Below are positions 6,264 through 16,888 of a DNA stretch of 30,607 nt, piece after piece. The notes beneath the pieces were generated by a model. That model searched no databases, was not told where the DNA came from, and saw only the letters and a program-made list of their open reading frames with translations. The DNA comes from a virus. Numbering within the stretch: position 1 is the first letter of the stretch; each line of letters begins with the position of its first letter. A program made the translations under genes and the position numbers. Location: positions 1 through 30,607 of IMG/VR virus record IMGVR_UViG_3300035670_000940; one strand, given 5' to 3'.

Positions 6264-7196
6264 ATGCTTACACAAATACCGAAACCCGAACACGGATCAC
6301 AAGCTTGGCTTGAAGTCCGCTGGCGCAACGACAACGGCGAAGCCCGCATCGCAGCCTCAGCGTGCGCCGCAGTCCACGGCCAACATCCGTTCATCACAAT
6401 GGCAGACCTCGCCAACGAACTGCTCTCCGAAACGCCACCGCAACCCAAAGAGCCGAACTCTGCAATGCTGCGAGGCACCACACTGGAAGCACCGATCCGC
6501 GAATGGGCAGCAAAACTGCTCGGTCACCCACTCACCGAACCCGACACCCTCTACCGTTGGGACGAGCCAGGTGTACGCCTAATCGCCACCATCGACTCAA
6601 TGAGTCAAGACGGCAGGGTGTTCGAGCAAAAGACAACGAACAAGATTTGGCGTGGCGAACTCCCCGACTACTGGTATTGGCAAGGCGTCCAACAAGCCAT
6701 CTGCACCGGAGTCTCAGAGATCACGTGGATTATCTTCGACTCCACTCTCGACCTGCATTTCCATGTTCAGCCGGTGTCAAGCGACGAGAAACAAACCCAC
6801 ATTGAAGCATGTCGCAGGTTCTTGGCCGCTATCGACATGGGCATCTACCCTGATGATGCCGTCGTCGAATACCGGCACGTCCAGGAACGTCACCCCGAAG
6901 GTGAAAAAAGCAAAGAAGTGGAACTGCCGATGTCGGCACTTGCCACCATCGAGCGACTACTGCTTGCCAAAGAGCAGATCAAGTCGGCTGAAGCAGCTGA
7001 GGATGCTTGCAAAGCAGAACTGTGCGCCATTCTCGGTGACGCAGAGTACGGTCTGATTCAAGACGAGTTGGTGTGTACCTGGAAAACCAGTCAACGTGAA
7101 TCGTTTGACTCCAAAAAGTTCCAGAAAGAACATCCCGCGTTGTGGGACAAGTATCGCAAGACAACTCCGGTACGCACGTTCAGGGTGAACAAGTGA
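6264..7196 (+). CDS. YqaJ-like viral exonuclease (lambda exonuclease fold)
   Basis: The protein has 310 residues with a PD-(D/E)XK exonuclease pattern: GSQAWLEVRW and RIAASACAAVHG (residues 28-39) matching the family N-terminus, GTTLEAPIREW with Glu75, IATIDSM with Asp111, FEQKTT with Glu121 and Lys123, and the Gln-rich helix WQGVQQAICTG (140-149). These are the conserved elements of the YqaJ / lambda Exo family, 5'-3' exonucleases that resect double-stranded ends for single-strand annealing recombination. The helical C-terminus contains LLLAKEQIKSAEAAEDACKAEL, usual for this family. The start is ATG 6264 with AAAAGGGG upstream. It is immediately followed by the annealing protein, completing a two-component recombinase. 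Confidence 0.88.
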   Translation: MLTQIPKPEHGSQAWLEVRWRNDNGEARIAASACAAVHGQHPFITMADLANELLSETPPQPKEPNSAMLRGTTLEAPIREWAAKLLGHPLTEPDTLYRWDEPGVRLIATIDSMSQDGRVFEQKTTNKIWRGELPDYWYWQGVQQAICTGVSEITWIIFDSTLDLHFHVQPVSSDEKQTHIEACRRFLAAIDMGIYPDDAVVEYRHVQERHPEGEKSKEVELPMSALATIERLLLAKEQIKSAEAAEDACKAELCAILGDAEYGLIQDELVCTWKTSQRESFDSKKFQKEHPALWDKYRKTTPVRTFRVNK

Positions 7197-7363
7197 CCAC
7201 GTACAACAAGGCTTACTATGACACACCCGCAGGTAAGGCTAAACAGAAGCGGGCAAATCAGCGGTTGCAAACCAAACGCAAACTTGCGTGGCAATGGTTG
7301 GCGGCGAACCGTCCAGATGTAATTGAAGAAATCAACAACCAAATCAACAAGGAGAACCAATGA
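7193..7363 (+). CDS. Small basic protein between exonuclease and annealing protein
   Basis: The 56-residue frame starts at GTG 7193, overlapping the exonuclease stop as GTGA, and overlaps the next ATG by four bases. It reads VTTYNKAYYDTPAGKAKQKR and then a basic helical stretch with WQWLAANRPDVIEEINNQI. A longer frame from 7142 is possible but would run deep into the exonuclease gene. The start Y-Y-x-T-P-x-G-K-A-K-x-x-R-A-x-x-R resembles small phage proteins often found beside recombination or HNH genes. It may bind nucleic acid, given the Lys/Arg-rich N-terminal half. Its function is unknown. Confidence 0.65.
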   Translation: MTTYNKAYYDTPAGKAKQKRANQRLQTKRKLAWQWLAANRPDVIEEINNQINKENQ

Positions 7364-8211
7364 ACCTGCAAGACATCCTCACCAAATACGGTGTACCCGA
7401 CCCGTCCATCGTCGGCAAACTACCTCGCGGTGGCATCACCCTCGACTTCGTAGGGCACGCTGAGATCACCAAGATTCTGATTGAAGTGGACCCGAACTGG
7501 TCATGGGAGCCGGTGGCATGGACAACCGACGGACGGCCCGCTATCGCAACAGTGAACGGTATGGCTGTCATGTGGGGCAAACTCACCGTGCTAGGTCAAA
7601 CCCGTCTCGGTGTCGGCTCAGCCCGCCACGACAAACCAGACCTGGACAAAGAACTGATTGGTGACTTCCTGCGCAACGCAGCGATGCGATTCGGTATCAG
7701 CCTGAGCCTGTGGTCGAAGTCTGAGTGGGAAGAACAGCAGGCTGCACCTCGTAAGCCTGCCGAACCGAAACCGGTGTCGCAAGATTTCGTCACCAAGTTT
7801 CGTGACGCCTGCGAAAAGAAAGGCATCAACCCCGACGACGTAGCGAAAGCTGCCGGTGTTGACTTGGCTGCGGTGACCGATGCGGATGCACCGAAGTTGC
7901 GGGACGCTTTCAAACAAGCAGAAGTCAAACCTGCCACCATCGAAGATGTGAAGCACGTGTTCGGGGAACAGGTCAGGGTGGTTGCCGAATCCAAGCCCGA
8001 CAATCCGACGCCGAAGAACCCTGGTGAGCCGGCAACGAAACCGCAGCTCGGCAAGATTCGTGCGCTACTGAACGCCAAAGGTATCTCGTCGTTCACTGAA
8101 AAGACTGAGGTGTGTGCCGATCTCATCAACCGTCCGATTACCAAGTTGGAACAGTTGACTCAGGGTGAGGCGTCACAGTGCATCGACATCCTTGACGCGA
8201 GGGTGTCGTGA
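7360..8211 (+). CDS. Single-strand annealing protein, Rad52/Sak-like
   Basis: The protein has 283 residues with a canonical AAGGAG upstream of ATG 7360. The N-terminal 125 residues carry DFVGHAEITKILIEVDPNWSW, then AVMWGKLTVLGQTRLGVGSA, then KELIGDFLRNAAMRFGISLSLW. This is the signature set of the actinophage annealing proteins related to Rad52/Sak/Erf: the hydrophobic hairpin, the G-x-G-S-A turn and A-x-x-x-A-A-x-R-F-G. These proteins form rings on single strands left by the exonuclease and promote annealing. A proline-rich linker (RKPAEPKPVS) leads to helical C-terminal segments and a final domain (KPQLGKIRALLNAKGISS) that may bind a partner. It overlaps the flanking genes at both ends. Confidence 0.82.
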   Translation: MNLQDILTKYGVPDPSIVGKLPRGGITLDFVGHAEITKILIEVDPNWSWEPVAWTTDGRPAIATVNGMAVMWGKLTVLGQTRLGVGSARHDKPDLDKELIGDFLRNAAMRFGISLSLWSKSEWEEQQAAPRKPAEPKPVSQDFVTKFRDACEKKGINPDDVAKAAGVDLAAVTDADAPKLRDAFKQAEVKPATIEDVKHVFGEQVRVVAESKPDNPTPKNPGEPATKPQLGKIRALLNAKGISSFTEKTEVCADLINRPITKLEQLTQGEASQCIDILDARVS

Positions 8212-8921: not shown

Positions 8922-9458
8922 ATGGATTGGGTTGTGCGCCTGTTCGCAGGTTTGACGGCGACGTTCGCGGTAGTGGGATTGTGGGGGGTTTCCGAGCCGA
9001 CCCCCACCATACCTACCCCCACCCCTGTTGTGACGCTTAGAACGCTTCCTATTGCGTCTCAGACCCCTTCTACGACCACTACCACCACCCTGCCGGTGCC
9101 AGCTGACGCCCTCTGCCCCCAATGGTGGCCCCTCGCCATCGAGGTCGGCTGGACACTCGACCTGCTACCCACCCTGGACTATGTGATGTGGCGTGAATCC
9201 CGATGCGACCCCACCCAACACAACACCACCCTCAACCGAGACGGCTCCACCGACGTCGGGTTGACCCAAATCAACGACCGATCATGGTGCCTGCCGACCC
9301 GCTGGTATCCGAAAGGATACTTGCAAACCATCGGCGTATTACCTACTGTTGGATGCGAACAGCTATTCGACCCGCAACTCAACCTCATCTCAGCGAAAGC
9401 GATTTACGACTATGCCCTCCAACACAACAGAAACGGATGGCAGCCGTGGGGACTCTAG
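8922..9458 (+). CDS. Secreted/anchored lytic transglycosylase-like protein
   Basis: The protein has 178 residues. An N-terminal hydrophobic signal-anchor (VVRLFAGLTATFAVVGLWGV, residues 4-23) precedes a Pro/Thr-rich linker (residues 25-58, with PTPTIPTPTP and TTTTTTLP) typical of exported actinobacterial proteins. The globular part has VMWRESRCDP with the candidate catalytic Glu92, DGSTDVGLTQIN (107-118) and NLISAKAIYDYAL (154-166): the E-S, G-L-x-Q-I-N and A-x-x-I-Y order of the goose-type/SLT lysozyme fold. It should cleave glycan strands outside the membrane. Its place among early genes, far from the endolysin, is odd: it might help DNA entry, remodel the wall during infection, or act as a second lysis enzyme. 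The ribosome site is strong. Confidence 0.75.
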   Translation: MDWVVRLFAGLTATFAVVGLWGVSEPTPTIPTPTPVVTLRTLPIASQTPSTTTTTTLPVPADALCPQWWPLAIEVGWTLDLLPTLDYVMWRESRCDPTQHNTTLNRDGSTDVGLTQINDRSWCLPTRWYPKGYLQTIGVLPTVGCEQLFDPQLNLISAKAIYDYALQHNRNGWQPWGL

Positions 9459-9468
9459 GTACACCTAC

Positions 9469-9723
9469 ATGGAACTGCTAAGCGAATGGGCGCTCACGGA
9501 CAAAGGCCAAGACTGGAAAGATGAAGCAGCCTGCCGAGGTGTTGAAGGTGACTTGTTCTTTCCAGGGGACAACAACCAGTACAAACCGGAAGCGTTCACG
9601 ATTTGCAACCAATGTCCGGTACGGGAACGCTGCCTAATGTTTGCAATGAACAACCACATCGCCTACGGTATTTGGGGTGGGATGACACCACCGCAACGAC
9701 AACGATACAAAAGGAGCTTGTAA
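9469..9723 (+). CDS. whiB: WhiB-family iron-sulfur transcription regulator
   Basis: The protein has 84 residues from ATG 9469, chosen because it yields a standard WhiB length and follows the previous stop; ATG 9412 and an upstream start at 9349 would overlap the transglycosylase gene. The four cluster cysteines are Cys22, Cys46, Cys49 and Cys55 (C-x23-C-x2-C-x5-C), in AACRGVEGDLFFPGD and ICNQCPVRERC. The turn GIWGG (67-71) and the basic end RQRYKRSL complete the family signature. WhiB proteins hold a 4Fe-4S cluster and bind the primary sigma factor region 4 to redirect transcription. Phage copies are known to interfere with host WhiB control. The family is restricted to Actinobacteria and their phages, which fixes the host group. 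The stop overlaps the next ATG (TAATG). Confidence 0.92.
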   Translation: MELLSEWALTDKGQDWKDEAACRGVEGDLFFPGDNNQYKPEAFTICNQCPVRERCLMFAMNNHIAYGIWGGMTPPQRQRYKRSL

Positions 9724-11568: not shown

Positions 11569-11710
11569 CCACTGCCAAACCATCGTGGTTCACGACCGAC
11601 GCAACATCGTCGGCTGCGGCTGCGACCCCGATGCCCCACAATGGTGCTACATCCAACCCGACGGCAAGGTTAGAGGGTTCAGCCAAGCATCATGGGAAGT
11701 GTTGGAATGA
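11540..11710 (+). CDS. Small zinc-ribbon-like protein (DUF7695-like)
   Basis: The 56-residue frame starts at ATG 11540 and ends at TGA 11710, overlapping the next gene by 4 bases. It begins MANETKIKCNHCQTIVVHDR and then NIVGCGCDPDAPQWCYIQ, a pair of Cys-x2-Cys and Cys-x-Cys sites. The layout K-I-K-C-N-x-C-x-x-I ... V-x-C-x-C-D ... resembles the DUF7695 zinc-ribbon family of small phage/bacterial proteins. It is too short for routine size cut-offs. It is likely an early regulatory or adaptor protein; its function is unknown. A purine-rich stretch (GGAAGAAAAAGAAA) lies upstream. Confidence 0.65.
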   Translation: MANETKIKCNHCQTIVVHDRRNIVGCGCDPDAPQWCYIQPDGKVRGFSQASWEVLE

Positions 11711-12747
11711 AAGTATTGTCACTGTTCTCAGGTGTCGGCGGGTTCGACCTCGGCTTGGAACGTGCCGGTATGGAGACGGTGTTTCAATGTGAATGGGACA
11801 AACACGCAACCAAAATCCTGGAGAAGCATTGGCCCAACGTGCCACGCTGGACAGACGTGTCCACCCTCACAGGTGAACACATCCTTCCCCACGCACCTGT
11901 CATTGACGTCGTTGCGTGGGGATCACCATGCCAAGACCTATCAGTCGCAGGCAAACGAGCAGGACTACAAGGCGCACGGTCAGGCTTGTTCCATGAAGGA
12001 GTCAGAATCATCAACGAACTAAGGGGGCTAACCAATGGAAAATACCCAGGAATCTCTATTTGGGAAAACGTCGCAGGAGCTTTGTCTTCCAACAAAGGCA
12101 ACGACTTCGGTGTCGTCCTCAACAAAATGGTTGAAGCAGGGGCGTGTTTCAGCGAATGGGCTGTGTTGGACGCACAATACTTCGGAGTCCCCCAAAGGCG
12201 TAGACGAGTGTTCCTCATCTCTGTCTTCGATACTGCAACCGCAGCAAGATGTCCCGACCCGCTACTACCTGTCAGCGAAAGCATGCGAAGGAATCCTCAG
12301 GCGGGCAGAAAGAAGAAACAAAACCCTACCGATACAGTTGCATCAAGCGTTGACGAATGTAATCAGCCAATGATTGCATTTAGTCACACACAAGGACTCT
12401 CGGCGCAACCATCAGAAACCGCTTGGCCTACCTTGCGCAGAGAGGGAAGCGGTCAAGCCGTTGCGTATGTATTGCGTGATCAAGAAGGAAAACCAGGCGG
12501 GGGCAAAGGTCCGCTTGTGTCACGCGAGATGTCGTTGGCAATCAAAACCGGCAACGACCAAAAACTGTTCACGCCAACAATGGCGGTACGCCGGCTCACC
12601 CCACTCAAATGTGAACGGTTGATGGGCTGGCCTGATGACTGGACCGCAGGACAATCAGACACCCACCGATACAAACAATGCGGCAACGGCGTCGCCTCAC
12701 CCGTCGCAACATGGATCGCACAACAACTACTCAACATCGACAAATGA
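11707..12747 (+). CDS. C5-cytosine DNA methyltransferase, Dcm-like
   Basis: The protein has 346 residues from ATG 11707 (ATGA overlap with the small zinc gene; a start at 11692 would only add five residues). C5 motifs are visible in order: I LFSGVGGFDLGLERAG (6-21), IV WGSPCQDLS with the nucleophile Cys75, VI ENV (120-122), VIII QRRRR (163-167), a variable target region, and X GNGVA (326-330). It methylates cytosine at carbon 5 within a short site that cannot be read from the sequence. There is no endonuclease beside it, so it is an orphan, possibly anti-restriction, enzyme. It is remarkable for a second conserved-looking frame nested inside (12035-12373). The next tiny gene overlaps by 4 bases. 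Confidence 0.9.
   Translation: MKVLSLFSGVGGFDLGLERAGMETVFQCEWDKHATKILEKHWPNVPRWTDVSTLTGEHILPHAPVIDVVAWGSPCQDLSVAGKRAGLQGARSGLFHEGVRIINELRGLTNGKYPGISIWENVAGALSSNKGNDFGVVLNKMVEAGACFSEWAVLDAQYFGVPQRRRRVFLISVFDTATAARCPDPLLPVSESMRRNPQAGRKKKQNPTDTVASSVDECNQPMIAFSHTQGLSAQPSETAWPTLRREGSGQAVAYVLRDQEGKPGGGKGPLVSREMSLAIKTGNDQKLFTPTMAVRRLTPLKCERLMGWPDDWTAGQSDTHRYKQCGNGVASPVATWIAQQLLNIDK
12035..12373 (+). CDS. Nested ORF within the C5 methyltransferase gene
   Basis: A 112-residue frame, shifted relative to the methyltransferase, starts at ATG 12035 exactly 7 bases after AAGGGGG (12021-12027), the Shine-Dalgarno form used by the plus-strand genes here. It reads MENTQESLFGKTSQE, then a Ser-rich middle, then SSLSSILQ and RYYLSAKACEGILRRAERR, and ends QLHQALTNVISQ. 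From memory, L-S-x-K-A-C-x-G-I-L-R-R-A-x-x-R-x-K-x-L-P recurs in phage proteins next to or overlapping cytosine methylases, which suggests that the second frame is conserved. The methyltransferase frame is intact over the same bases, so the DNA would be dual-coding. Chance remains possible. Its function is unknown. Confidence 0.5.
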   Translation: MENTQESLFGKTSQELCLPTKATTSVSSSTKWLKQGRVSANGLCWTHNTSESPKGVDECSSSLSSILQPQQDVPTRYYLSAKACEGILRRAERRNKTLPIQLHQALTNVISQ

Positions 12748-12924: not shown

Positions 12925-13203
12925 TCAAATAACCCGCTTGGGAGGCAGCCGTGCGAACTCCACCCGCGATACCTCACGCACCTCAACACCCTTCCACCCG
13001 CACTGCTCAACCGCCGACTGCGCCGACTCCCGCCGCCCCCATAAATACGCCACGTGCTTTCGTGATGTGAATGTCCGCCCGCGCCACTTCCACTCGCCCG
13101 CCCAATACTTCCCGTCGCGCAACCTGACGACGACGAACACCGTCTTGCGTGGTCGAGGCTGCCTGATCTTGTGTGCGAGGCGCCGGAATAGGTATCGGCT
13201 CAA
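12925..13203 (-). CDS. Leftward cluster gene 12: basic Trp-rich protein
   Basis: The frame from TTG 13203 (TTGA overlap with the preceding stop; GTG 13230 is an alternative) has 92 residues. It is very basic at the start (RYLFRRLAHKIRQPRPRKT), then VFVVVRLRDGKYWAGEWKW, and a C-terminal half with VAYLWGRRESAQSAVEQCGW and VEVREVSRVEF. The block V-V-R-L-R-D-G-x-Y-W-A-G-x-W resembles small phage/plasmid proteins of unknown function that start with a beta hairpin and an RDG turn. It is the last gene of the cluster. A terminator could not be assigned in the 31-base convergent gap. Confidence 0.62.
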   Translation of the reverse strand: MSRYLFRRLAHKIRQPRPRKTVFVVVRLRDGKYWAGEWKWRGRTFTSRKHVAYLWGRRESAQSAVEQCGWKGVEVREVSRVEFARLPPKRVI

Positions 13204-13376
13204 CGGTTGCGCCGATACCAGGCACGCCACGCAAGGTAGCTAATGCCTGCGCTGCCAACGAACCTAGCCGCCCACACTCCGTAGCCGTCGCTCGGATCGC
13301 CCGTCGCCACCCCCAATAAGAGAGTGGCGACGAACGTGGTCGTCATCGCATCTGAGAACGCCGTCCTACCGTTCAT
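13200..13376 (-). CDS. Leftward cluster gene 11: small membrane protein
   Basis: The 58-residue frame is read from ATG 13376 (ATGA overlap with gene 10). A hydrophobic span (MTTTFVATLLLGVATG, residues 11-26) is followed by a second short hydrophobic segment (GYGVWAARFVGSAGISYLAW, 31-50) and a basic end (RAWYRRNR), so one or two spans with the basic tail inside the cell. It overlaps the last gene by 4 bases. It is shorter than usual cut-offs and easily missed. Similar small membrane proteins in phage early clusters often alter envelope properties or exclude other phages, but the role here is unknown. Confidence 0.65.
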   Translation of the reverse strand: MNGRTAFSDAMTTTFVATLLLGVATGDPSDGYGVWAARFVGSAGISYLAWRAWYRRNR

Positions 13377-13546
13377 GGTAAGATTGCTTCGGGTCGGATT
13401 ACTTCTAATAGTTCGGCCTTGCGCGCCATGTGAGCCTCAAAGGTCCATGCGTCACCTAGTTGGTGTTCTACCACCTGGTCGAGCGCCCATAGCACGGCAT
13501 CTATCTGTTCTAGTTCTCGTGCCGTGTAGTTGCGTTGCCGGTTCAT
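13373..13546 (-). CDS. Leftward cluster gene 10: small helical protein
   Basis: The 57-residue frame is read from ATG 13546 (ATGA overlap with gene 9). It reads MNRQRNYTARELEQIDAVLW, then helices with QVVEHQLGDAWTFEAHMARK and a C-terminal ELLEVIRPE. It is all-helical, charged and without Cys. A much longer frame from 13861 is open but has no start supported by the chain of overlaps, and its upstream part is Arg-rich shadow. It is translationally coupled to its neighbours. Its function is unknown. Confidence 0.65.
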   Translation of the reverse strand: MNRQRNYTARELEQIDAVLWALDQVVEHQLGDAWTFEAHMARKAELLEVIRPEAILP

Positions 13547-13731
13547 GCTGGCATCCCTGAATCTTCGGCGTCTGCAATCCACCAGTGGGATAGGTCTATG
13601 CCGTAGTGATCGAGAATGAATGTTCTCGCCGTGTCTGTTGCTTCCTCGTCGTTTCGTGCGGCGACCGTAGTTTGTATGGTGGCGTGGTCGTGCGCGAACG
13701 TCACTTGCCAAAAGGTTGTTCCGGCGCTCAT
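13543..13731 (-). CDS. Leftward cluster gene 9: small alpha/beta protein
   Basis: The 62-residue frame is read from ATG 13731 (ATGA overlap with gene 8). It reads MSAGTTFWQVTFAHDHATIQ, then ARNDEEATDTARTFILDHYG, and ends LSHWWIADAEDSGMPA. The pattern W-x-V-T-F-x-H-x-x-x-x-x-T-V-x-A-x-x-x-E-E-A resembles small domains with one hairpin and one helix seen in phage and plasmid genes of unknown function. The longer frame from 13896 overlaps gene 8 and is unlikely. It is coupled to the next gene by a 4-base overlap. Confidence 0.65.
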   Translation of the reverse strand: MSAGTTFWQVTFAHDHATIQTTVAARNDEEATDTARTFILDHYGIDLSHWWIADAEDSGMPA

Positions 13732-13919
13732 GACTTGGCCTGCCATCCGCAATGCGAACAGCGTCCGCAACGAATCGAACCTCGGCGCCGCCTGCCAGTG
13801 ACTTGAGCTTTCGTGAGGCACGGGTCTTGGTCTGCGTGTGTCGGGCATAGGAACGTGGCAAGCACGCTCCCGTCCGTGTGACGCGAGCAGGCGCACCTGA
13901 TCTGAATGGTAGTAGTCAT
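13728..13919 (-). CDS. Leftward cluster gene 8: multi-cysteine zinc-binding protein
   Basis: The protein has 63 residues from ATG 13919, overlapping the stop of the DUF6927-like gene by one base (TAATG). It has nine Cys/His candidates before the C-terminal cluster: CAC-x2-H near residues 9-14, C-P-T-H at 25-28, C34, then CGRCSHCGW at 51-58. Two zinc sites are likely. A conserved purine-rich leader (the cluster's CGACAGAAAGAGAGC motif) lies five bases upstream of the ATG, inside the preceding gene's end. Its function is unknown; small zinc proteins in this setting often bind nucleic acid or a host protein. Confidence 0.68.
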   Translation of the reverse strand: MTTTIQIRCACSRHTDGSVLATFLCPTHADQDPCLTKAQVTGRRRRGSIRCGRCSHCGWQAKS

Positions 13920-14494
13920 TACTTGCTCTCTTTCTGTCGGTTGTTGAGCTCTCGTGGTGCCGTGGTGACGATCACGAACTGGTATCGTGTGCGCCAGTCA
14001 CGCGGCAATCTAACTGCGATGGTGTATAGGCCGCCGTTGTCGCCGGTGGCAGTCGTTCGGAATCGGTTGTTCTTCAACAGCCTGAACGTGTCCGCCTTGA
14101 ATCCGCCGTTGAACTCAATCGGTGTCTCCACTCGGATCGTGTCGCCTGGTGCGAGCTTCGGTGCCGCTTTCTTGTTCGCGTGGTGTTCGCGTACTTTCTG
14201 GCGCCACTCGGCTGCGTACTCGTTCGGTGCTTCGCTCAACCGGTCGAGGAACGCGAGAGGGTACCCGTAGTCTGCGGGTCCCACGTCTTCGCCCATGATC
14301 TTCGTGCCGATCTCGCCGCGTGACTTGCGGACCAGTGCGACAACCGCCGTGAGTCGCCCCGTCTCTTTCTCGCGCATGAGCCAGTACTTTGCGCCTCGGT
14401 TGGCGACGATCTCGTATCGGCTTTCAGGCCACGATAACTCCCGCCGAACGTAATCTTCGGCTTTCTCCGTGGTGTAGGTGTAACTCCAACCCAT
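13919..14494 (-). CDS. Leftward cluster gene 7: DUF6927-like protein
   Basis: This is a 191-residue protein, the largest in the cluster. It begins MGWSYTYTTEKAEDYVRREL, and includes VVALVRKSRGEIGTKIMGEDVGPADYGYP, then AAEWRQKVREHHANKK. These match the DUF6927 pattern (M-G-W-x-x-x-Y, an internal hairpin ending in A-x-V-x-L-V-R, then M-x-E-x-x-G-P-x-x-Y, then Y-A-x-E-W-R). This family is scattered over phages, plasmids and bacterial accessory regions and has no known activity that I can recall. The C-terminal third (GDTIRVETPIEFNGG and FRTTATGDNGGLYT) looks like a beta domain. Its leader carries AGAAAGAGAG, and a promoter is predicted 54-83 bases upstream. Confidence 0.78.
   Translation of the reverse strand: MGWSYTYTTEKAEDYVRRELSWPESRYEIVANRGAKYWLMREKETGRLTAVVALVRKSRGEIGTKIMGEDVGPADYGYPLAFLDRLSEAPNEYAAEWRQKVREHHANKKAAPKLAPGDTIRVETPIEFNGGFKADTFRLLKNNRFRTTATGDNGGLYTIAVRLPRDWRTRYQFVIVTTAPRELNNRQKESK
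13925..13940 (-). promoter_or_regulatory. Purine-rich leader of cluster gene 8, inside gene 7
   Basis: This is the second exact copy of CCGACAGAAAGAGAGC. It encodes the last residues of gene 7 (NRQKES) while ending five bases before the ATG of gene 8, so it serves coding and initiation at once. Confidence 0.58.
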
Positions 14495-14503
14495 GTCTGT
14501 TTC

Positions 14504-14515
14504 TCTCTTTCTGTT
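14504..14515 (-). promoter_or_regulatory. Purine-rich leader copy upstream of gene 7
   Basis: The leftward leader reads ACAGAAAGAGAG at this place, a 12-base match to the cluster motif found in front of genes 1, 3 (partial) and 8. It lies 9-20 bases upstream of the gene 7 ATG, so it probably serves as the ribosome binding site or as part of a translational control element. It differs from the AAGGGG used by rightward genes. Confidence 0.5.
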
Positions 14516-14547
14516 GTTGTTGTCGAGCTCGCGCCCGCTTGTAGATA

Positions 14548-14577
14548 ACCTTAGTCTATCCGTCCGTCCGTTTGCAA
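14548..14577 (-). promoter_or_regulatory. Predicted leftward promoter before gene 7
   Basis: On the minus strand, TTGCAA (14577-14572) and TAAGGT (14553-14548) are spaced by 18 bases. The -10 hexamer equals that of the predicted recombination promoter at 6226. The -35 overlaps the 3' end of gene 6. This would add a second entry point to the cluster. It is inference only. Confidence 0.4.
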
Positions 14578-14822
14578 CACCGGTGCCACAAGTGAGCGAA
14601 AGGGTACGCGCCCACTCCCGCCGCGAGCGTCGCGCCCGCCGAACCCGTCACCGCCGCCACCGGCAACACCGCCCACAACGTCACCGCAAGCGACGGCACC
14701 ACAACCCGCGAACCCGCCAAACTATGCCGAACCCCATCCGAAACACGCGCCACAATGCCCCAGGATCGACGAACCGACCCCCGCCCGCTATCTAGGTACC
14801 CCCCAGAATGTCGCCGCCTCAT
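14556..14822 (-). CDS. Leftward cluster gene 6: small membrane protein
   Basis: The protein has 88 residues from ATG 14822 (ATGA overlap with gene 5). A polar, basic N-terminal part (RRRHSGGYLDSGRGSVRRSW) precedes one or two hydrophobic helices (VVVPSLAVTLWAVLPVAAV, about 45-63, and ATLAAGVGAYPFAHLW) and a basic C-terminus ending CCKRTDG. Two antiparallel spans are plausible. Its codons are very GC-rich. It is followed by 61 bases containing the promoter and leader of gene 7. Its function is unknown. Confidence 0.62.
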   Translation of the reverse strand: MRRRHSGGYLDSGRGSVRRSWGIVARVSDGVRHSLAGSRVVVPSLAVTLWAVLPVAAVTGSAGATLAAGVGAYPFAHLWHRCCKRTDG

Positions 14823-14959
14823 AGCTCGCGCCGGATGAAGAACCGCCACAGATCACGCCCGCAACCCTGGCACGCCCGCAACACAACCGCGAGCGGCACC
14901 AAGATCACGCCAAGCACGAACACCAGCCGCGCCGCCAATAGCATTAGGTCCGCCGTCAT
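14819..14959 (-). CDS. Leftward cluster gene 5: 46-residue membrane peptide
   Basis: The protein is read from ATG 14959 (ATGA overlap with gene 4) to TGA at 14819, which itself overlaps gene 6. It reads MTADLMLLAARLVFVLGVIL, then VPLAVVLRACQGCGRDLW and a basic end. One membrane helix (residues 5-26) is followed by CQGC, a Cys-x2-Cys pair in the cytoplasmic tail that might bind a metal or form a disulfide. A longer frame from 15016 is open but unsupported. Single-span peptides like this are typical of phage early clusters. Confidence 0.66.
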   Translation of the reverse strand: MTADLMLLAARLVFVLGVILVPLAVVLRACQGCGRDLWRFFIRREL

Positions 14960-15129
14960 TCTTCGCCCCCCATGTCCTCGGCATGGATCGCCCACCCCTC
15001 CCACTTGCACGCCCATTCAATCGACTGACCCTGCACGTTGAGCAGATAGCGCCACGCCTCGGCCTCAGTGTTGAACCTTGCCCGCCTCTCACCGTCCCGC
15101 GAGACGGTCCAAACAGTCCCAGCAGACAT
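14956..15129 (-). CDS. Leftward cluster gene 4: small Trp-rich protein
   Basis: The 57-residue protein is read from ATG 15129, overlapping gene 3's stop by one base (TAATG) and gene 5 by 4 bases (ATGA). It begins MSAGTVWTVSRDGERRARFN and continues TEAEAWRYLLNVQGQSIEWA, then WEGWAIHAEDMGGEE. The plan W-T-V-x-R-D-G-x-x-x-x-x-F-x-T-x-x-E-A-x-x-x-L resembles small one-helix, one-sheet domains in phage/plasmid genes, with a conserved RDG turn also seen in gene 12. Its function is unknown. It is too short for routine annotation but perfectly placed in the chain. Confidence 0.68.
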   Translation of the reverse strand: MSAGTVWTVSRDGERRARFNTEAEAWRYLLNVQGQSIEWACKWEGWAIHAEDMGGEE

Positions 15130-15482
15130 TATTCCACCCCCACCTCTCGCGGGCCGTTATCTGTCGGCACAATCAACCGCACAACCCACCCGCGAGGGTC
15201 CCCGCCAATCTGGGCCGCAATGGGGCCGTGATCCGTTGCCGGTAGCTCGGCCACTAACCCCGCCAGGCGCTTCGACACTTGCGCGTATCGTTTCTCGATC
15301 CAGGCCGCGTGAGCGTTGAACCATTCGCCGGAATGGATGCCGTCGCCGCACTCGATCTCAGTGAGGCGCCGCAGTGTCTTCGCGTGCCGCGCAATAAGGC
15401 TGCACGTATCCTCAACCCGCCACGGGGTAACCCCGTAACGCGATAGCGCTATTGCGAGCGCTTGCCCATTCTTCGTAGCCAT
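15129..15482 (-). CDS. Leftward cluster gene 3: phage/plasmid GDPRG-motif protein
   Basis: The protein has 117 residues from ATG 15482. It is mostly helical: LAIALSRYGVTPWRVED, then LIARHAKTLRRLTEIECGDG, then WIEKRYAQVSKRLAGLVAEL, then GDPRGWVVRLIVP (93-105). The plan L-x-R-L-x-E-x-x-C ... helix ... GDPRG-x-x-V-x-L is one I recognise from many small phage and plasmid proteins of unknown function, where the C-terminal strand follows a D-P-R-G turn. Its leader is a long GA run (AAGAGAGAAAGAGAGAGC), the fourth variant of the cluster motif. The 112-base gap upstream holds a hairpin and a tRNA-like minihelix. Confidence 0.72.
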   Translation of the reverse strand: MATKNGQALAIALSRYGVTPWRVEDTCSLIARHAKTLRRLTEIECGDGIHSGEWFNAHAAWIEKRYAQVSKRLAGLVAELPATDHGPIAAQIGGDPRGWVVRLIVPTDNGPREVGVE

Positions 15483-15490
15483 ACCTAGTA

Positions 15491-15506
15491 GCTCTCTCTT
15501 TCTCTC
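15491..15506 (-). promoter_or_regulatory. Purine-rich leader of cluster gene 3
   Basis: The leftward strand reads GAGAGAAAGAGAGAGC here, ending nine bases before ATG 15482. It is a longer variant of the CGACAGAAAGAGAGC motif in front of genes 1 and 8. It could pair only weakly with a normal anti-Shine-Dalgarno, which makes it an unusual initiation region. Confidence 0.5.
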
Positions 15507-15515
15507 TTATTCGGC

Positions 15516-15532
15516 CCCGCCGGATTAGCGGG
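15516..15532. other. Small GC-rich hairpin in the gene 2 / gene 3 gap
   Basis: CCCGC (15516-15520) and GCGGG (15528-15532) form a 5-bp stem with a 7-base loop. In the leftward transcript it follows the tRNA-like minihelix (15541-15586) directly. No U-run follows on either strand, so a terminator is unlikely; an RNA-stabilising or processing element is possible. Confidence 0.4.
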
Positions 15533-15540
15533 CTACCTTG

Positions 15541-15586
15541 CACCGTGCCACGGAATCGAACCGCGACGAACCCGCCAGGGCACGGA
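15541..15586 (-). ncRNA. tRNA-like acceptor/T-arm minihelix between genes 2 and 3
   Basis: In the leftward RNA the 5' strand CCGTGC (within 15586-15580) pairs with GCACGG (15548-15543), six consecutive pairs. It is abutted without a gap by a T-arm, CGCGG / TTCGATT / CCGTG (15565-15549), with a five-pair stem (one G-U) and the canonical T-loop. The 14 bases linking them are too few for D and anticodon arms, so this is a 46-base minihelix, not a decoding tRNA. No CCA follows. Such coaxial acceptor/T stems are the minimal substrate of RNase P and RNase Z, so an mRNA processing site between two genes is the attractive reading. A decayed tRNA is the alternative. Confidence 0.5.
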
Positions 15587-15594
15587 CCTAGAAC

Positions 15595-15804
15595 CTATTC
15601 CGCGACGATAAACAACCCGCGCCGCGTCAAGCTCTCACGGAACAAAGCCACGGCCTCGCGGCGAGTGTACCCCTCAAAGTGCATAGTTTCGTAGAACGGG
15701 CCGCCCCACGGGTTGCCGAGCGGGTTACGGTCCCGAACCAGGGCCGTAACGTTCAACCCGCCGGACGGGAACGATCTTTCGACAGTGACCGCGCCCGCGC
15801 TCAT
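15595..15804 (-). CDS. Leftward cluster gene 2: YTRREA-motif protein
   Basis: The protein has 69 residues from ATG 15804 (ATGA overlap with gene 1). It reads MSAGAVTVERSFPSGGLNVT, then GNPWGGPFYETMHFEGYTRR and EAVALFRESLTRRGLFIVAE. The core Y-T-R-R-E-A-V-A-L-F-R-E-x-L is one I recognise in small phage and plasmid proteins (often Y-T-K-R-E-A-x-x-x-F), preceded by a strand and followed by a helix. Its function is unknown; it appears in accessory gene sets together with GDPRG and DUF6927 proteins. A 112-base gap with structured RNA follows. Confidence 0.7.
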   Translation of the reverse strand: MSAGAVTVERSFPSGGLNVTALVRDRNPLGNPWGGPFYETMHFEGYTRREAVALFRESLTRRGLFIVAE

Positions 15805-16016
15805 TGCGCGCCCCGCTCATAACGCGCCCGAAGAACGCTAACGGCGTCTTCTATGTCGTCAAGTGTCGCCAGATCGATGACAGACGGCGTGCCCCATGTC
15901 CGGCCCCGCATGTCTTCGGCCCACCCCATAACCGAGCTTAGAACGTCTTCCGTTCTTTGCTCATTGATCTGACGCCGCATTATCTGGCGCCGAATCTCCC
16001 TTACTGCCTGGCCCAT
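15801..16016 (-). CDS. Leftward cluster gene 1: small helical protein
   Basis: This is the first gene of the leftward cluster, 71 residues from ATG 16016. It is preceded by the leader CGACAGAAAGAGAGC and a predicted promoter. It opens MGQAVREIRRQIMRRQINEQ, a strongly basic amphipathic helix, then RTEDVLSSVMGWAEDMRGRT, and ends with a helix (LDDIEDAVSVLRARYERG). The same frame stays open back to 16388 but that extension crosses the promoter and lacks support. ATGA overlap couples it to gene 2. Its function is unknown; the basic helix suggests nucleic acid or membrane contact. Confidence 0.68.
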   Translation of the reverse strand: MGQAVREIRRQIMRRQINEQRTEDVLSSVMGWAEDMRGRTWGTPSVIDLATLDDIEDAVSVLRARYERGAQ

Positions 16017-16301: not shown

Positions 16302-16417
16302 CATCGACAGGACCGCCCCCACGTCGCGGGGGGTATGCCCGCGCACCCGTCCCCCTATGTACGTATTAGGTGTTTTCTGTGTGGTCATTTTTGTGGGTGG
16401 CGGCGCCGTGTGACCCA

Positions 16418-16453: not shown

Positions 16454-16634
16454 TTGCTGGTTATCTTCTGTGCTGCGGTGGGTTGGGCCTGTTCTCGAAG
16501 TCGTGTGTGTGGAACCGGTAGCAACCGAACGTAGTGAGGGCGCTAGGACAACTGAGCGTATGCGAAGGCGTCAGGCTCTTGACCTTTTTAGCCCCCCCAA
16601 GTTCTGTTTTACGCCTGAACCCGTCTGTCTTGAT

Positions 16635-16669
16635 ACCGAAAGAAGGCGACCATCTTCGGTCCCCTTTTC
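16635..16669 (+). terminator. Terminator-like hairpin
   Basis: ACCGAA (16635-16640) pairs with TTCGGT (16655-16660), and the stem continues imperfectly through AGAAGG and CCATCT to a CGA loop. It is followed by CCCCTTTTC. The T-run is short, so intrinsic termination would be moderate. No gene ends just upstream, which raises the possibility of a short noncoding transcript. Confidence 0.35.
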
Positions 16670-16793
16670 AGGCCACTATTCGCGTGCGATCTAACCATGC
16701 TGCCCCAACCGATGATTGTGGTTGGGAGGAATGTAATCGTTTAGCGTCCGTATTCTTGGGGTGTTGTGCGCGTCTCTCGACGTGGCGGTGTTG

Positions 16794-16821
16794 AGTGTAG
16801 CAGAGGTTTGCGTGTTTGCAA
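16794..16821 (-). promoter_or_regulatory. Weak predicted leftward promoter after the tRNA-like element
   Basis: On the minus strand, TTGCAA (16821-16816) and TACACT (16799-16794) have a 16-base spacer. This is the third TTGCAA in a leftward promoter-like setting. It lies directly behind the CCA end of the tRNA-like element; it would produce a long leader or a noncoding RNA. Confidence 0.3.
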
Positions 16822-16823
16822 CT

Positions 16824-16888
16824 TGGTGGACGTGATCGGAGTTGAACCGATGTTCCACTCCCCAAAGGTGGTCTTGCCTTGCACGCCC
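16824..16888 (-). tRNA. tRNA-Pro(UGG)-like gene with shortened D-arm
   Basis: On the minus strand the acceptor strands GGGCGTG (16888-16882) and CACGTCC (16834-16828) pair over seven bases with one G-U. They are followed by discriminator A (16827) and an encoded CCA (16826-16824). The T-arm ATCGG / TTCAACT / CCGAT is perfect. The anticodon arm CCACC / TTTGGGG / AGTGG has one C-A mismatch next to the loop and presents anticodon UGG (16864-16862), which reads the proline codon CCA. Only 10 bases (CAAGGCAAGA) stand where about 19 are normal, so a standard D-arm is missing and the total is 62 bases plus CCA. It may be a functional D-less tRNA, a decayed tRNA, or a tRNA mimic or processing element. 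Confidence 0.55.

Follow-up and report, generated by a model that had tools for sequence, protein, structure and literature searches.

How should a block of very small genes that runs against its neighbours in a phage genome be read, and is its direction a lasting property of the phage that carries it? The question is raised by virus record IMGVR_UViG_3300035670_000940, a stretch of 30,607 nt (hereafter the window, to whose whole length all coordinates refer), in which twelve tiny open reading frames (ORFs) occupy the minus strand between positions 12925 and 16016. An earlier note, made from the sequence alone, had described them as a leftward gene cluster and a host-takeover or anti-defence island. 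Comparison with relatives shows that the cluster is an island of a known kind, unusual in that it switches strand. The earlier note was right about the genes but overlooked a conserved structured RNA just upstream of them, at 16583-16804. This RNA, which probably belongs to a new structured RNA family, is the most interesting result of the analysis.

A hypervariable slot facing either way

All twelve ORFs are found on the minus strand where they had been placed, and the nine overlap junctions proposed for them are borne out by the sequence: six are ATGA (15804/15801, 14959/14956, 14822/14819, 13731/13728, 13546/13543 and 13376/13373), two are TAATG (at 15129 and 13919) and one is TTGA (13203/13200). 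Two gaps, of 112 bp (15594-15483) and 61 bp (14555-14495), interrupt the cluster. The minus strand of the window has 11 overlap links, with an unbroken chain of six, and the plus strand has two; 500 dinucleotide shuffles gave a mean of 2.2 and a maximum of six links, and a chain of six in none. Same-frame tblastn relatives were recovered for ten ORFs, in 2 to 30 loci each. In all ten, changes are in excess at the third codon position, and among codons with a single change the synonymous ones outnumber the non-synonymous (for example 525/200, 101/59, 70/10 and 32/5). The two ORFs lacking relatives among these loci match Pfam DUF6927 (E 2.9e-18) and PHROG 38200 (E 3.5e-7). Frameshifts or a loss of amino-acid conservation in relatives, named beforehand as grounds for giving up the genes, were checked for and did not refute them. 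Because the overlap chain goes beyond chance, the synonymous bias is consistent and the DUF6927 and PHROG matches cover the rest, we accept all twelve ORFs as probable genes. That they are mostly spurious, being chance open frames on the minus strand of GC-rich DNA whose true content is noncoding, might be argued from their shortness and from an island GC content of about 58-64%, but the shuffles do not reproduce the chain, and the synonymous bias in 10/10 testable ORFs refutes this view for those ten. We regard it as scarcely credible.

To place the cluster, 162 relatives of the window's TerL were found in IMG/VR, and the 80 that were kept (97 to 72% identity) are referred to by L-numbers. 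The 54 rows with enough DNA upstream of TerL, including the window, entered an all-against-all ORF comparison, in which the ORFs of the relatives were called by the ORF and conservation criteria of this analysis. The gene-order comparison suggested by the earlier note, now made against 80 relatives, leaves the genes standing and reveals a hypervariable accessory island, with conserved flanks, in the slot between the DNA methyltransferase and TerL: it holds mostly small genes, at the same position and mostly different ones from relative to relative. Three states of the slot can be distinguished, namely leftward, as in the window; rightward; and rightward with a MoxR-like AAA protein (PF07728) accompanied by a DCSGSMS-motif protein. 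In most genomes, the island genes lie all or nearly all on one strand.

The direction of the island can differ between close relatives. L003 (leftward) has the same TerL protein as L005 and L024 (rightward), and L054, L057 and L058 (leftward) have the same TerL protein as L055 (rightward). Despite identical TerL, L003 and L005 have one island family in 16 in common, and L054 and L055 one in 21. On the TerL tree, the three slot states need eight changes; the starred branches force at least seven gains or losses of the leftward state and at least five of the rightward state. Island orientation has thus switched repeatedly, and near-identical phages carry islands facing either way. The description of a leftward cluster is true of the window, but this direction is not fixed.

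Genes of the same family can also be followed across this divide. Family 16, to which ORF 11 of the window belongs, has 92-97% DNA identity over 151-153 bp between leftward copies (L003, L006, L007, L008) and rightward copies (L005, L024), and in L005 and L024 the match begins at the ATG of the gene or 2 nt before it. Family 12 has 80-83% DNA identity over 640-860 bp between L003 and L006 on one side and L005 and L024 on the other, on opposite strands. A stop codon lies no more than 10 bp from the end in 26% of 203 homology blocks, as compared to 4% of random positions, a sixfold excess. The blocks thus tend to stop where genes stop, and single genes or short runs of them seem to be units of exchange.

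Two further features of the relatives were observed. In about ten of them, the MoxR-like AAA ATPase and the DCSGSMS (VWA/MIDAS-like) protein replace the small genes (for example, L072:4494-5237 and L073:1019-2350, both on the plus strand), and many relative contigs (L002, L004, L010, L013, L016, L019, L020 and others) reach no further than about 2.3 kb upstream of TerL, which looks as if the assembly had broken at the hypervariable island.

A conserved structured RNA upstream of the island

The RNA candidate of the window (16583-16804, minus strand) lies upstream of the cluster on the same strand and belongs to what we call class I, for which model R1 gives it 246 bits and in which 11 pairs covary. 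The class I block is present in 28 relatives, most of them at 80-97% identity. Its alignment supports a fold of several helices, with 97.4% of cells paired and 11 pairs changed on both sides, and its covariation score of 0.236 compares with 0.108 for shuffled and at most 0.07 for slid alignments. Relatives that lack class I have, at the corresponding place, a second structure (class II, for example L043:9670-9862, minus strand), in which 22 of 38 pairs covary and the score is 0.440 against 0.150. Of the 80 loci, 76 contain an RNA of one of the two classes; in two of the remaining four, the sequence upstream of TerL is shorter than 130 bp. A pattern scan identified class I in 42 stretches and class II in at least 120; class II stands on the strand opposite TerL in 97/97 TerL-holding loci (median distance 695 bp). 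The model of either class does not convincingly find the other, so the two classes may or may not share a common descent.

On the minus strand, G-U pairs outnumber A-C mismatches by 54 to 6 in one class and by 100 to 15 in the other, and from this excess the sense of the RNA is most likely leftward. The RNA is preceded by TGCTACACTC, which is kept in most class I relatives, and a promoter-like element at 16794-16821 (minus strand; the hexamers TTGCAA and TACACT 16 nt apart, the latter preceded by TGC) is a consensus match only; a generic sigma-70 promoter scan returned no consensus sites and did not list this element. A plus-strand ORF called across the RNA (family 28) was discarded, as the RNA core lengths of relatives are not in one frame. 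Rfam covariance models gave no match to class I or class II at E up to 5; matches in relatives to ctRNA and hammerhead II fell below the gathering score and were rejected.

Unlike the island, the RNA seldom changes class, with just two changes over the TerL tree. That it stays constant next to an island with such fast turnover speaks for a core role and against a part in a rapid arms race. We therefore consider it highly probable that the two classes make up an undescribed family of phage RNA, transcribed leftward from a conserved promoter-like sequence, kept whichever way the island faces and serving a core function. That function may be regulatory, may concern packaging, or may be aimed at conserved host machinery. 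Like phi29 pRNA, GOLLD and ROOL, it would be a conserved, phage-encoded RNA of several helices; it differs from them in measuring about 180-220 nt with no Rfam match. The partner expected of a phi29-type packaging RNA was not found: the packaging gene here is a TerL (phrog_38) rather than a phi29-type ATPase, and phi29 has no classical TerL. A partial literature search, mostly by title and abstract, turned up nothing that appears to describe the RNA at 16583-16804. With 11 and 22 covarying pairs in its two classes and no Rfam match, it is a candidate for a new family of phage RNAs whose structure is well defined.

The nature of the island

Taken as a whole, the observations are in our judgement reasonably well explained by an accessory island, most likely of early host-takeover and counter-defence genes, whose members are exchanged by relaxed recombination. 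The cluster would then hold putative early host-takeover and counter-defence genes of a tailed phage, and each tiny protein would be directed against a target in the host or against one of its defences, as is ArdA in relatives. Exchange would involve genes one by one or a few in a row, at short homologies near gene junctions, in reactions that the phage's own YqaJ-type exonuclease (6264-7196, plus strand; PF09588, E 7e-7) and single-strand annealing protein (7360-8211, plus strand; phrog_3290, E 1e-58) may catalyse, and selection would then retain only those arrangements that keep the island genes together on a single strand and transcript. As neither the recombinase search (0/15 records) nor the border repeats point to site-specific inversion, the annealing protein and the exonuclease appear to be the likelier agents.

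Evidence for counter-defence comes from the slot as a whole. An ArdA antirestriction gene (PF07275) occupies it in L006, a leftward close relative of the window, and in L040, which is rightward (Pfam E 2e-18 and 2e-19), and family 37, to which ArdA belongs, is present in L030, L044, L048 and L055 as well; the Pfam confirmation concerns L006 and L040. The proposal of a host-takeover or anti-defence island holds insofar as the slot is a hypervariable accessory one with ArdA in relatives; no window protein has a known function of this kind, and the window's own island lacks ArdA. By association, a counter-defence island is the best reading for the slot, though for no single gene of the window.

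Several points weigh against this explanation. No known anti-defence match was obtained among the window proteins with Pfam (ten proteins) or PHROGs (all twelve), the link to ArdA is by association and Pfam-confirmed in two relatives, and early expression of the cluster is putative. No homology at the junctions was found to be shared by every island, and the mechanism of exchange is one that we infer. A GA-rich leader, AAAGAGAG, occurs in only part of the leftward islands (16 coding-strand copies) and is absent from the coding strand of the rightward ones. The contigs are metagenomic, so some joins could be chimeric, a concern that is countered by the recurrence of opposite orientations in contigs from different metagenomes.

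Islands that face both ways between flanks of constant direction also bring to mind the invertible segments of the Gin/Cin kind, in which a recombinase would flip the whole island between inverted repeats to switch its expression, and families 12 and 16 are indeed inverted, in mirrored order, between L003 and L024. However, serine (PF00239) or tyrosine (PF00589) recombinase domains were found in 0/15 records, which may be incomplete, while the controls were positive. In the window, L003, L024 and L055, the island is not bordered on both sides by inverted repeats that are long or nearly perfect; those present are only weak or internal. Gene content is, moreover, almost wholly different between orientations, which is not what one flipped segment would give. 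What is shared with Gin/Cin segments is two orientations between fixed flanks; the recombinase, the flanking repeats and the constant content are not. We consider this explanation largely refuted and very improbable. Inversion through the leader AAAGAGAG was also considered; five copies lie in the window, all within the island or at its edge, but such inversion is not general, since rightward islands lack the leader on their coding strand. A different objection accepts the island as it stands and takes it for an ordinary early operon of small orphan genes with no counter-defence role, serving transcription, metabolism or some other part of host takeover. It could draw on the lack of any Pfam or PHROGs function beyond DUF6927 among the window proteins and on a weak winged-helix similarity in one island family. 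The extreme turnover, the ArdA genes in the slot of relatives and the methyltransferases at the left border fit an arms race better, and we think an ordinary operon unlikely.

An exchangeable counter-defence island would resemble the highly variable phage accessory-gene loci with anti-defence genes that were screened by Silas et al. (PMC12373910): those loci are likewise variable regions of mostly unknown-function genes with anti-restriction genes among them. The present islands are set apart in that they face either way in near-identical phages, are (nearly) strand-pure and adjoin a conserved structured RNA. Phage counter-defence genes are often found through their neighbours. Here, about 80 phages have exchangeable tiny genes in a slot of constant position, and pairs with identical terminases and near-wholly different islands make island function testable by comparison. 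Repeated change of orientation combined with strand purity also provides a clear case in which to study how phages shuffle single genes without a site-specific recombinase.

Genome setting, individual genes and smaller elements

The window belongs to a tailed phage of roughly 35-41 kb. A rightward DNA methyltransferase (11707-12747) forms the left border of the cluster, with a further methyltransferase to its left; TerL (phrog_38, E 6.5e-63) and the portal lie to the right. The flanking genes on both sides, including the annealing protein and exonuclease, are all rightward. A WhiB transcription factor gene lies at 9349-9723 (plus strand, E 5e-21), and since WhiB is an actinobacterial family, the host is probably an actinobacterium, as far as gene content can tell. 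By megablast, no deposited phage is a close relative of the window, and the best TerL matches among deposited phages are Streptomyces phages at 26%. A TerL pattern scan of the GTDB genomes in the collection found none with this TerL, and so no prophage or host.

Between the RNA and the cluster lies a second conserved noncoding block (16325-16396, minus strand), with CCACAAAAATGA and TAATACGTACATA followed by a GGGGG...CCCCC hairpin. It is detected by blastn in most loci, is kept with islands of both orientations and is perhaps a leftward promoter. Two tRNA-like pieces were also observed. One (16824-16888, minus strand), in an insert of about 87 bp seen in the window only among relatives, lies just upstream of the RNA's promoter-like sequence and has a 7-bp acceptor stem, a T-arm, a CCA end and a proline-like anticodon loop but no D-arm; it is not called by ARAGORN, its best Rfam result is a weak, partial match to tmRNA, and a search of IMG/VR for its 24-mer found none. 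The other (15543-15585, minus strand; CCGTGCC...GGTTCGATTCC...GGCACGG) lies in the 112-bp gap of the cluster and was not found in relatives.

The ORFs, all on the minus strand, are numbered from the right. ORF 1 (15801-16016, 71 aa; two loci, synonymous/non-synonymous 29/11) overlaps ORF 2 by ATGA; its frame is open to an ATG at 16388, so that 16016 is a preference only, resting on a GA-rich leader that resembles a ribosome site. ORF 2 (15595-15804, 69 aa, family 29) has relatives in seven loci (102/34), and ORF 3 (15129-15482, 117 aa) in two, at 61-63% identity (70/10). ORF 4 (14956-15129, 57 aa) is the PHROG 38200 match. The count of three small membrane proteins in the cluster is fair, with hydropathy peaks of 1.42 (weak), 2.23 and 2.69: the highest is that of ORF 5 (14819-14959, 46 aa; three loci, 32/5), which has one strongly hydrophobic segment, and the next that of the hydrophobic ORF 6 (14556-14822, 88 aa, family 46; four loci, 77/40). 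ORF 7 (13919-14494, 191 aa) shares the DUF6927 domain (PF21992) at residues 90-159, and calling it DUF6927-like was sound, since the Pfam match scores 66 bits against a curated cut-off of 27; it also matches phrog_21047 (E 1.6e-9). DUF6927 has no known function, a search of viral contigs found no relative of ORF 7, and the partial literature search, again mostly by title and abstract, returned nothing naming the domain. ORF 8 (13728-13919, 63 aa, family 48; four loci, 73/21) is rich in cysteine and histidine and lies on the opposite strand in L005; the zinc protein reported in the cluster is a reading of a CxC/CxxH/CxxC pattern only. ORF 9 (13543-13731, 62 aa; five loci, 58/40) has a plus-strand counterpart in L024, and ORF 10 (13373-13546, 57 aa) is found in three loci, one at 91% identity (24/11). 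ORF 11 (13200-13376, 58 aa; eight loci) is the moderately hydrophobic family 16 member with the opposite-strand DNA match in L005 and L024. ORF 12 (12925-13203, 92 aa, family 6; 30 loci, 525/200) may start at TTG 13203, as first given, or at GTG 13230. AlphaFold models of family 6 (pLDDT 82) and family 12 (pLDDT 86) gave no match of note in a PDB search. Family 6 is the final gene of nearly all leftward islands, and is on the minus strand in 30/30 cases and never rightward.

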